Part shown: piece after piece, positions 41,633-45,006 of the stretch | How positions within the stretch are numbered: position 1 is the first letter of the stretch | How the letters are laid out: the number at the start of each line of letters is the position of its first letter | Origin: an uncultured SAR202 cluster bacterium | GTDB lineage: Bacteria; Chloroflexota; Dehalococcoidia; Lucifugimonadales; Lucifugimonadaceae | Direction: 5' to 3' | Length of the DNA stretch: 64,000 bases | Assembly (NCBI GenBank): GCA_902620405.1 | Contig: CACNIC010000001.1 | Span: forward strand, 62,001 to 126,000 | Translations under genes and position numbers: made by a program | Notes under the pieces: model-generated | Database searches by the model: none | What the model was told of the DNA's origin: nothing | What the model saw: the letters and a program-made list of their open reading frames with translations, nothing else

Positions 41633-42690
41633 TAGAATTTGATAATCGATCTTCCTGTTATTTCACCACTTTCTAATTTGTGGCATGCTTCATTAATTTC
41701 TGACAAATTAAATGATTTACTAATCATTTTATTTATTGGAAATTCACCTTTTTTATACATCTCTAAAAAGTAAATAAAATCTTTTTCCGGGTAAGTCGCT
41801 CCTAAGCTACCTTTAAATGTTTTTTGTGTTAATAAAATCTGGTTTGCATCTAAAGTTATTTCAGGGGATTCAGGTATACCAATTAATATTGATGTGCCAC
41901 CAGTGTTATCTGCGCCAGATCCTCCTTGTTTTACAGCTTCAAAAATTTGATTCATTGTAATTTTTTTTCCAATAGCATCAAATGCATAATCCACTCCGCC
42001 ATTAGTGAGATCAAAGATTTCATTTATTGGGTTATTTTCTAATGAATTGATAGTATGAGTTGCACCAAATTGTTTTGAAAATTCTAATTTGTCTTTATCT
42101 ATATCTATAGCAATTATTTTTGAAGCCTTTAATAAAGAAGCCATTTTTACGGCAGCTAGACCGATCCCACCAACACCAAAAATAGCTACAGTTTCTCCAG
42201 GTTTCACTCTTGCAGTATTTTTTACGGCACCAGCACCAGTTAGAATTGAACATCCAACAATACAAGATTCTGGGGAGGCATATTTTTTTGGTATTTTAAC
42301 AACATACTCATCTTCGCTCATTATTATTTCTGACCAAGTAAATGTAATCCTACAGTTTAATTTTTTTTCCTGATAACTTACGCCCTTTAAGTCTGGAAGG
42401 TATCTTCCTTTAATTGGATTCCTTCTAACCCAAGTAGCAATAACATGATCACCTTCTTGAACGTAATTACAGTCGGGCCCGGTTTTCAATACCACACCTG
42501 TTGCTTCATGCCCTAGCAAAAAAGGTTTAGGTAGGTTTTTATCGTGCATTTGATGTAGCTGAGAATGGCATATTCCACTGGAAATAAGTTTTATCATTAC
42601 TTGGCTTCCTACTGGATCAGCAATATCTATTTCGTCTACAATAAGTTCTGGTTTATTTCCTAATTGAATTGCTGAAAGTGATTTCATCAT
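41632..42690 (-). CDS. Zinc-type alcohol dehydrogenase lacking the structural zinc site
   Basis: A medium-chain dehydrogenase of 352 residues. The catalytic zinc ligands are visible in SGICHSQLHQ (Cys), LLGHEATG (His) and the Cys of VGCSILTGAGAV. The cofactor loop is GVGGIGLAAVKMA. The four-cysteine structural zinc lobe usually near residues 95-115 is replaced by RRNPIKGRYLPDLKG with no cysteines. Substrate range is unknown. It overlaps cinA by ATGA. Two consecutive ATG codons occur at the start, and I use the first. Confidence 0.88.
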   Translation of the reverse strand: MMKSLSAIQLGNKPELIVDEIDIADPVGSQVMIKLISSGICHSQLHQMHDKNLPKPFLLGHEATGVVLKTGPDCNYVQEGDHVIATWVRRNPIKGRYLPDLKGVSYQEKKLNCRITFTWSEIIMSEDEYVVKIPKKYASPESCIVGCSILTGAGAVKNTARVKPGETVAIFGVGGIGLAAVKMASLLKASKIIAIDIDKDKLEFSKQFGATHTINSLENNPINEIFDLTNGGVDYAFDAIGKKITMNQIFEAVKQGGSGADNTGGTSILIGIPESPEITLDANQILLTQKTFKGSLGATYPEKDFIYFLEMYKKGEFPINKMISKSFNLSEINEACHKLESGEITGRSIIKF

Positions 42691-43907
42691 TTTAAAAAAT
42701 TTCTAATTAAGCTTAATGAACTCATTATAGCCCTTCTTTTGTCTGGAATACCAATCCCTGCAGAACGAACATGCTTTGTTTTATTGCTAGTACCATCAAA
42801 AATTGCGAAATAACTTTCTCCTTGTCCTAAGTTTTGAACATTTTCATCTCCATTTGTTATTCCATAGTACGCAAAACCAATGTCAGAAGACGAAAGTGTT
42901 TTTATAAATTTTGCAAGTTCGAGACATACTTCTTCTGGTGATTTATCAACAATATTTAAATCATATTTTTTTAAAAATTTATGAATATTTTTATCTCCGG
43001 AAGTTAATCCAATATTAAAATTATTTTTTGCAAAATCTTTAATTGAGTTAGAAATCACCCCACTTGAAATATTTTCAAATACTGAAATCGTTTGGTTATT
43101 TTGAATTAATAATTCTGCAACTACTTTTTCTAAGGTGTCCTCGTCTTCTCCAAAAATATTTTCACCTAACAATTTTTCAATTTCTTTTTTAACAGGCGAT
43201 ATTAATTTTGTTGCTTCTTGTTTACTTTTTGCCTTCGCAGCAATTCTGACATCAACTTGACCAGGGTGAGCAAGCACTCCGACAGTTGGGTTTTTTGATG
43301 TTTCCATTATTTTTCCAATAAGATCATCAACATTGCTTTCTCCAAGATCAATTGTTTTAAGGACTTTATAGTGAATAATTTCCTCAAGATTATATTTTTT
43401 TACCAAATAAGGAATAATTTCATTATCAATTAACCATTTCATTTCAAAAGGAACTCCAGGCAGTGAAATTATACATTTGTTATCTTTTTCAACAATAAAT
43501 GATGGGGCAGTTCCATTAGGATTTTTAACTATGATTGAGCCTTCTGGGAAATGTGCTTGTCTATCATTATTTTTAGTTGGTATCATCCCTCTTTTTCGGA
43601 ATCTATTATTTATGTGATCAAGTGATTCTTGGTCGGGAACCAATTTTTTTCCAACAACTTTTGCAACAATGTCTCTAGTAATATCGTCTTTTGTTGGCCC
43701 TATTCCTCCACACGTGATTACAATATCTGCCCTAGACAATGACTTTGACAATATATAATCCATTCTTTCAGGATTGTCTCCAACTATTGTTTTATAAAAT
43801 AAATTAATTCCGTTCTCAGCAAGCCTTTTTGAGATCCATGCAGAATTTGAATCAACAATTTGACCTAATAACAATTCAGAACCTATAGCTACAATTTCAG
43901 CATTCAT
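42687..43907 (-). CDS. cinA: CinA family protein (MoCF-like domain plus degenerate NMN-amidase domain)
   Basis: Competence/damage-inducible protein CinA family, 406 residues. The N-terminal molybdopterin-binding-like domain is well conserved: IGSELLLGQIVDSNS, CGGIGPTKDDITR, LPGVPFEMKW. The C-terminal domain corresponds to PncC nicotinamide-nucleotide amidase but is degenerate: the ESCTGG site reads ENISSG and the SGIAGP segment reads YGITNG, so amidase activity is doubtful. TATAAT at 43919-43914 ends six bases before the ATG. The gene diverges from the Cys4-HTH gene, with the twin GAAC-N4-GTTC operators between them. Confidence 0.92.
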   Translation of the reverse strand: MNAEIVAIGSELLLGQIVDSNSAWISKRLAENGINLFYKTIVGDNPERMDYILSKSLSRADIVITCGGIGPTKDDITRDIVAKVVGKKLVPDQESLDHINNRFRKRGMIPTKNNDRQAHFPEGSIIVKNPNGTAPSFIVEKDNKCIISLPGVPFEMKWLIDNEIIPYLVKKYNLEEIIHYKVLKTIDLGESNVDDLIGKIMETSKNPTVGVLAHPGQVDVRIAAKAKSKQEATKLISPVKKEIEKLLGENIFGEDEDTLEKVVAELLIQNNQTISVFENISSGVISNSIKDFAKNNFNIGLTSGDKNIHKFLKKYDLNIVDKSPEEVCLELAKFIKTLSSSDIGFAYYGITNGDENVQNLGQGESYFAIFDGTSNKTKHVRSAGIGIPDKRRAIMSSLSLIRNFLK

Positions 43908-43942: not shown

Positions 43943-43972
43943 TTGACATTAAGAACATATGTTCTATATTAT
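43943..43972 (+). promoter_or_regulatory. Promoter of the Cys4-HTH gene
   Basis: Perfect -35 TTGACA at 43943-43948, an 18-base spacer and -10 TATTAT at 43967-43972. The spacer is largely occupied by one GAAC-N4-GTTC palindrome, and a second begins right after the -10. Binding at either should block RNA polymerase. Confidence 0.65.
43952..43965. promoter_or_regulatory. Operator 1, LexA-like palindrome in the promoter spacer
   Basis: AGAACATATGTTCT is a perfect 14-base palindrome matching the GAAC-N4-GTTC core of Gram-positive-type LexA operators. It sits between -35 and -10. The bound protein is not proven. Confidence 0.6.
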
Positions 43973-43988
43973 TAGAACAAAAGTTCTA
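43973..43988. promoter_or_regulatory. Operator 2, LexA-like palindrome over the transcription start
   Basis: TAGAACAAAAGTTCTA has six-base inverted arms around AAAA and the same GAAC-N4-GTTC core as operator 1. The centres are 22 bases apart, about two helical turns, so dimers would lie on the same face of the DNA. Confidence 0.6.
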
Positions 43989-43996
43989 TTAATATT

Positions 43997-44326
43997 ATGT
44001 TAAGTAAATTAAATTTAAATAATGACGAAGTAAATTTTAAAGATTCTGGGTGCAGATTCAGTTCATCATGTTTGAATTGTCCGATTCAAATATGTATTTA
44101 TGACGACCCTTCATTTGTACGTAATTTAGAAAAAAATAATAGAGATGAGAACATTATTGAAGACAGGTCAAATGGACTGTCAAATCAACAGATAGCCAAA
44201 AAATATAATGTAAGCATAAGGACTGTGCATAGGTCATTAAAAAAAATAAAGCCAAATAAAAATGTGAATTTAAATATTAAGAATAATATTTATAAAAAAT
44301 TTGAAATTTATTCATCAAGGTCATGA
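43997..44326 (+). CDS. Small Cys4 plus helix-turn-helix protein
   Basis: I do not recognise a named family. The 109-residue protein has four cysteines spaced C-x5-C-x2-C-x4-C (residues 19, 25, 28, 33) in GCRFSSSCLNCPIQIC, followed by a charged linker. A helix-turn-helix follows at about residues 61-83: LSNQQIAKKYNVSIRTVHRSL. The tail is basic and Asn/Lys-rich. The cysteines could hold zinc or an iron-sulfur cluster, making it a possible redox- or damage-responsive regulator. A strong promoter with two overlapping LexA-like operators precedes it, so autoregulation or SOS control are both possible. Its end overlaps phoU by 19 bases on the other strand. Confidence 0.75.
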   Translation: MLSKLNLNNDEVNFKDSGCRFSSSCLNCPIQICIYDDPSFVRNLEKNNRDENIIEDRSNGLSNQQIAKKYNVSIRTVHRSLKKIKPNKNVNLNIKNNIYKKFEIYSSRS

Positions 44327-45006
44327 TCAATCAATGATGATGAATCTCCAGTTAAAACATACAGAGTTCTTTCCGCAATATTTGTAGACCTGTCAGAAAT
44401 CCTTTCTAAGTTATGAGCAACCCATATTATGTAAGTGCCCTGTTTAACAATTTTTGAATTTTTTGACATCCTTTTGATTAGATCTTGTTGAACTTGGGTA
44501 TTGAGGTTATCAATTTCATCATCTCTAGAAAATATTTCTCTTGAGGTCTCTACTGCCCCATCAGCTTCTTTCTCATTCAAATATGACTTCATACTCATTT
44601 TAAGCATTTCTTTTGCTACATTTTCCATCTTAGGGATTTTTTCGAATTTGGTAATAAAAGGCTCTTTTCCAATCTTGGTATTTATTCTTGAAATACCTCT
44701 TAAATAATCACCAATTCTTTCTAGTTCTTGAGCAACAAATATATGAGAAGTTAATTTCCTGATATCAGTAGCAACTGGAGTTTGGTTTCTAATAACATTT
44801 ATCGCTAAATTTTCGATGTCACTTGATAATTCATTTATTTTTTTATCTTCCTCAATAATTTTTTTTGATAAAGATAAATCTTTTTCGTAAAAAGCATCCA
44901 TACTTTCCATGAAAGCTGTATTTACTAATCTATATAAAACATTAATTTTGGTTTCTACATCCAGTAATTCAAGATCTAGTGATTTTCTACCTCTGTAATC
45001 ATCCAT
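44308..45006 (-). CDS. phoU: Phosphate-signalling protein PhoU
   Basis: Links the Pst phosphate transporter to the phosphate-responsive kinase. The 232 residues form two similar three-helix bundles, each with the metal-contacting E-x2-R-[IV]-x-D/E motif: AQELERIGDYLRGI in the first half and AHNLERISDRSTNIAE in the second. It follows pstB after 15 bases. No PhoR/PhoB pair is in the window. Confidence 0.93.
   Translation of the reverse strand: MDDYRGRKSLDLELLDVETKINVLYRLVNTAFMESMDAFYEKDLSLSKKIIEEDKKINELSSDIENLAINVIRNQTPVATDIRKLTSHIFVAQELERIGDYLRGISRINTKIGKEPFITKFEKIPKMENVAKEMLKMSMKSYLNEKEADGAVETSREIFSRDDEIDNLNTQVQQDLIKRMSKNSKIVKQGTYIIWVAHNLERISDRSTNIAERTLYVLTGDSSSLIDHDLDE

Follow-up and report, generated by a model that had tools for sequence, protein, structure and literature searches.

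LexA-type twin operators on a phage-derived Cys4-HTH gene of SAR202 bacteria, a probable damage-controlled remnant of a packaging cassette

Two copies of the palindrome GAAC-N4-GTTC lie in the promoter of a small gene in the window, our term for the whole 64,000-nucleotide stretch of SAR202 DNA that was analysed. The product of this gene, here called the Cys4-HTH protein, combines four cysteines with a helix-turn-helix (HTH). We consider it probable that the twin operators are of the LexA type and damage-controlled, and that the gene on which they sit is the last surviving one of a phage-derived packaging cassette. The window belongs to genome G000, a SAR202/Dehalococcoidia MAG of 0.97 Mb that is 70% complete, and contains the following features at this locus.

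43943..43948, + strand: -35 hexamer TTGACA, read from the sequence; relatives have the same TTGAC(A/T) ahead of the first box
43952..43965, + strand: operator 1, a 14-bp palindrome, AGAACATATGTTCT, in the -35/-10 spacer; kept in relatives
43953-43964, + strand: core of operator 1, GAACATATGTTC, GAAC-N4-GTTC, read from the sequence
43967..43972, + strand: -10 hexamer TATTAT, read from the sequence; the spacer to the -35 is 18 bp
43973..43988, + strand: operator 2, a 16-bp palindrome, TAGAACAAAAGTTCTA, over the expected transcription start; kept in relatives
43975-43986, + strand: core of operator 2, GAACAAAAGTTC, GAAC-N4-GTTC, directly after the -10
43997..44326, + strand: Cys4-HTH gene, 109 aa, with a C-x5-C-x2-C-x4-C module followed by the HTH; phage-derived family
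42687..43907, - strand: cinA, the divergent neighbour, with domains PF00994, CinA_KH and CinA
44308..45006, - strand: phoU, the convergent neighbour, outside the unit; it marks the syntenic position and is adjoined by pstB

A preliminary description of this DNA had reported two GAAC-N4-GTTC palindromes on either side of the -10 in a TTGACA-18-TATTAT promoter, with their centres 22 bp apart, and this is borne out by the sequence as well as by shuffling. The start codon of the Cys4-HTH gene, an ATG at 43997, follows 10 bases past the core of operator 2. The exact motif is found twice in the window, both times here, against an expectation of 0.41, and at least two copies appeared in 8 of 100 shuffles; a close pair, present once in the window, arose in none of 100 shuffles of it. 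The genome of the window holds seven exact sites, compared with ten for the reversed control; four of the seven lie inside coding genes, two are the twin pair and one is located between fmt and dnaA. Thus, single sites are not enriched, either in the window as judged by shuffles or in its genome as judged by the reversed control, and what is significant is the twin pair together with its conservation. As expected of LexA operators, the sites cover promoter elements (the -35/-10 spacer and the start), and relatives have the same layout.

The preliminary description had also proposed to check whether related genomes keep the palindromes, and they do. Twin GAAC-N4-GTTC boxes were identified in 41 of 197 relatives, at about one per genome, compared with 2 for the reversed pattern, and their carriers all belong to one family, with a single exception. 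At 52 loci from named genomes, which overlap partly with the genomes of the other counts, the upstream sequences (66 kb) contain 86 boxes, and the downstream sequences (155 kb) contain none; at least one box is present at 45 of these loci, and a pair at 36. The distance between the centres varies by genus, being 18, 19, 20, 21, 22 or 30 bp, and genus g5 has one box. Fixed helical phasing of two dimers was rejected because the centre spacing, ranging from 18 to 30 bp, differs between genera; a position on the same DNA face, which had been suggested from the window, is therefore not a constraint on these sites, some genera being single-boxed. The supposed link to cinA did not hold up either. The same boxes are paired in other genera with a lipoprotein-like gene, tsaD or an alcohol dehydrogenase gene, and since the boxes persist in several genera while the divergent gene changes, cinA was dropped as an SOS partner.

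GAAC-N4-GTTC is the LexA motif of Bacillus subtilis and Gram-positive bacteria, and LexA control of the imuA-imuB-dnaE2 cassette is persistent wherever this cassette occurs (PMC3323433, PMC4234289). Relatives of the window genome have this box at their SOS genes. Within the window's family, the lexA promoters of genera g2, g3, g4, g5, g7, g9, g11 and g12 carry a GAACATTAGTGC-type box and recA promoters carry GAAC-N4-GTGC (for example GAACAAATGTGC and GAACAGATGTGC), while in other families of the order lexA itself is preceded by GAACN4GTTC. In family f1, the last four bases are GTGC in the boxes at lexA and recA and GTTC in the twin boxes. A symmetric TAGAAC-N4-GTTCTA lies ahead of imuB-type operons (PF00817) in three genera, represented by G020 ('Candidatus Lucifugimonas marina' JH1073, CP046147, 3,094,136 bp), G011 and G035. 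Genus g10 adds a case of joint change: the recognition helix of its LexA reads SSASNVNYHV where others have SSTSVV(D/S)YNL, and the boxes of its lexA promoter, CGACAAATGTGCGAT, and of the promoter of gene X (described below) and the Cys4-HTH gene, TGACAAATGTTCGAT, have changed together. Because the same box is located at recA, lexA and imuB-type promoters of sister genera, and because of the joint change in g10, LexA is the likely binder of the twin operators. In the literature that we searched, we found no report of a LexA regulon of SAR202.

Two further boxes were noticed. In Ca. Lucifugimonas marina (G020), TAGAACATTTGTTCTA at 1809 of locus L277 precedes a 70-aa zinc-ribbon gene and a gene for a 491-aa AAA/Terminase_6C protein, a second case of a terminase-like gene behind a box of the SOS type. 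In G035, TAGCACGTTTGTTCTA at 1590 of locus L284 precedes a gene that by eye resembles MmcB-type repair nucleases and has no Pfam match.

The situation in the window's own genus, g1, is different. The LexA protein of the window genome (C3:73814) has its AG cleavage site, SGDSM and TLKR intact. The GAACN4GTKC box is absent from both the lexA and the recA promoter of this genome, was found ahead of lexA at none of the g1 loci (L098-L104), and is missing from recA in most of g1 (L146, L148-L154), the basal G006 having at most a weak AAACAAGTGTGC. Furthermore, the LexA recognition helix in g1 reads SSKSVV as opposed to SSTSVV, a T-to-K change, and inspection by eye revealed no new palindrome common to g1 lexA and recA. 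Judged from these sequences, the SOS circuit in most of g1 seems to have been rewired. TAGAACN4GTKCTA is nearly unique to the Cys4-HTH promoter in this genus. Another strong palindrome, GAATATTGTACGATATTC or GAATAATGTACAATATTC, is carried by umuDC promoters (L348 and L349 of g1; L347 of g8); a GAAC box at the g1 umuDC promoters was considered and rejected, the palindrome there being a different one. In addition, eight g1 genomes contain a single GAAC-N4-GTTC in the divergent fmt/dnaA intergenic region, about 20-35 bp before fmt. In G000 it is located at C1:48473-48484 (L001, L202), outside the window, and it is also present at L194, L196-L198, L200, L201 and L203; the box is absent from this region in four other genera. 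The protein that binds the box, whichever it is, may have the fmt/dnaA site as a second target.

These results divide two points of the preliminary description. With regard to the motif of the genome's own LexA, sister genera have GAAC-type boxes at their SOS genes but the lexA and recA promoters of the window genome do not; likewise, the proposed damage-controlled switch gains support from the SOS boxes of sister genera and from the joint change in g10, and loses some from the boxless lexA and recA of the genome itself. In our view, LexA control is likely the right reading for the family and a probable one for the window genome. In that case LexA would repress the promoter, with operator 1 in the -35/-10 spacer and operator 2 over the start, and RNA polymerase would be blocked by the bound repressor because the operators cover both. 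Damage would cause RecA-activated self-cleavage of LexA and release the promoter, and the Cys4-HTH protein, formerly a partner of the packaging motor, would be produced after damage. We infer that this protein still binds DNA, and its likeliest present role in SAR202, which seems to lack both motor and capsid, is that of a DNA-binding regulator.

Other explanations of the twin boxes have to be weighed. That they are functionless palindromes, arisen by chance in AT-rich DNA, would agree with the lack of enrichment of single sites in the window and genome; however, shuffles never yield the pair, and the boxes are kept across genera that differ in central bases and GC content. This conservation refutes a chance origin, to which we attach next to no probability. 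A more serious rival, although on balance an unlikely one, is autoregulation: the Cys4-HTH protein would occupy the palindromes as a dimer and thereby repress the promoter of its own gene, its four cysteines (metal or Fe-S) acting as a sensor. The protein has an HTH, and g1 keeps the twin boxes, now nearly unique to this promoter. Autoregulation is possible because the lexA and recA genes of g1 have lost the box and the recognition helix of their LexA has changed, and in a variant of this idea the ancestral binder was LexA, which may have been replaced in g1 by the Cys4-HTH protein. On the other hand, the box is also present ahead of recA, lexA, imuB and TerS, all unlinked to the Cys4-HTH gene, Cys4-HTH genes without a box exist (second copies in G019 and G028, and phage versions), and the box of g10 has shifted jointly with that of lexA.

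A further candidate, which we regard as improbable, is another repressor of genus g1 that binds both the twin sites and the fmt/dnaA site. The fmt/dnaA GAACN4GTTC, kept in eight g1 genomes and not in four other genera, is what speaks for it, and as an unusual LexA target this box was also counted against LexA. Yet no candidate gene for such a repressor was found, and the box is older than the genus and equals the SOS box of the family. LexA control is thus the explanation that we prefer.

The four cysteines of the Cys4-HTH protein are invariant in the family, and both the C-x5-C-x2-C-x4-C module and the S-x-R-T-x-x-R positions of the HTH hardly vary across the family and relatives; a homologue is present in 42 of 60 relatives. 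Pfam and NCBIfam gave generic HTH matches only. The AlphaFold2 model is of moderate confidence (pLDDT 71), with the HTH part above 90 and the cysteine part weaker, and a PDB fold search with this model produced no match below E 0.001. A search of a phage-sequence collection with a Cys4-HTH protein gave no match, and IMG/VR yielded 8 loci. L184 (G028) and L185 (G019) each hold another, divergent Cys4-HTH paralogue that has no box.

The Cys4-HTH protein derives from phages. Its gene is located, in other Dehalococcoidia, between TerL and the portal of a TerS-TerL-Cys4-portal-capsid cassette, and other families have an intact TerL of 460-509 aa next to this gene and to an SPP1-type portal. The terminase assignment is based on Terminase_6N/6C (weak), on PHROG terminase matches and on a Bacillus phage terminase at 1e-44. 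The major capsid protein matches phrog_212 at 1e-77, and further members are TerS (phrog_1889), the portal, a scaffold-like coiled coil and an SU10-type adaptor; terminase, portal and major capsid genes are clustered at L387, L388 and L395. Hence, what had been described as a stand-alone uncharacterised regulator descends from a phage head-packaging module.

Most genera of the window's family have the boxes followed by a gene X (170-280 aa) and then the Cys4-HTH gene. X aligns to the N-terminal half of TerL (tblastn down to 5e-24, 24-34% identity), has neither a Walker A motif nor the nuclease half, and has no match in Pfam or NCBIfam. No TerL match was found in the window genome, which is 70% complete. 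The terminase is truncated in the window's SAR202 family and gone in the window's genus. The order of decay in SAR202 would be that TerL lost its Walker A motif and nuclease half, that TerL then disappeared, and that the LexA-boxed Cys4-HTH gene remained.

Across the class, 155 of 294 genomes have TerL, mostly as a single copy, and the TerL tree tracks host families (5 changes versus 9.3 when shuffled, with none of 200 shuffles as low). Of 30 class-wide cassette loci, 22 have LexA-type boxes ahead of TerL; these loci have 23 boxes in 44 kb upstream versus 4 in 79 kb downstream, the corresponding counts for a control motif being 0 and 1. Among relatives on phage contigs, a box was found in 9 of the 63 with enough upstream sequence and a Cys4 gene in 9 of 80. 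Because both are rare there, a box and a Cys4 gene seem to characterise the form of the cassette that is chromosomal and host-controlled. At L387, cellular genes flank the cassette, as judged by eye. In different families, a YqeY-like or HIT-like gene is found close to the cassette (L385 and L387; L389 and L393), which hints at an old common chromosomal position.

Compared over hundreds of relatives, the sequences suggest that the class kept a DNA-packaging cassette of viral origin and put it under the control of the damage response, and that the Cys4-HTH gene is what the window genome still has of it. A wider and more tentative proposal, to which we give slightly less than even chances, is that Dehalococcoidia, from organohalide-respirer-like members to SAR202, inherited an SOS-controlled, damage-induced GTA-like head cassette of a new lineage, which decayed stepwise in SAR202 to a LexA-boxed Cys4-HTH regulator, perhaps with a new job. 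The parts of the cassette in this proposal are a TM protein, TerS, TerL, Cys4-HTH, portal, scaffold, capsid and adaptor, and some of its bearers appear to be Dehalococcoides-like. The literature searched contained no report of a gene transfer agent in Dehalococcoidia.

SAR202 is an abundant clade of the ocean, and light inhibits or kills its cultured members (PMC10444878). For this clade the boxes provide an outline of an SOS regulon, which is tied to a phage-derived packaging cassette kept class-wide. If the cassette makes particles, it would constitute a damage-induced route of gene transfer in Dehalococcoidia.

Compared with known systems, the window operators share their core and their placement over the promoter with the LexA operators of B. 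subtilis and other Gram-positive bacteria, and sister genera have the same box at recA, lexA and imuB-type genes. They differ in that the window has tandem boxes on a phage-derived gene and boxless lexA and recA genes of its own. The Dehalococcoidia cassette resembles gene transfer agents (RcGTA and the Caulobacter GTA) and domesticated prophage head modules in its compact chromosomal terminase-portal-capsid arrangement, its family-wise inheritance and its putative link to stress control, which for alphaproteobacteria is described in the literature (PMC6473078, PMC9632790). It differs from them in belonging to another phylum, in having Cys4-HTH between TerL and the portal, and in its LexA-type boxes. 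The window keeps the Cys4-HTH gene only; in sequenced phages, the Dehalococcoidia TerL is matched at low identity only. Finally, the Cys4-HTH protein resembles phage terminase small subunits and small phage HTH proteins in its position beside TerL and the portal, its HTH, its small size and its weak PHROG matches. However, because the cassette has a separate, PHROG-supported TerS gene, the Cys4-HTH protein is an additional component of the cassette.
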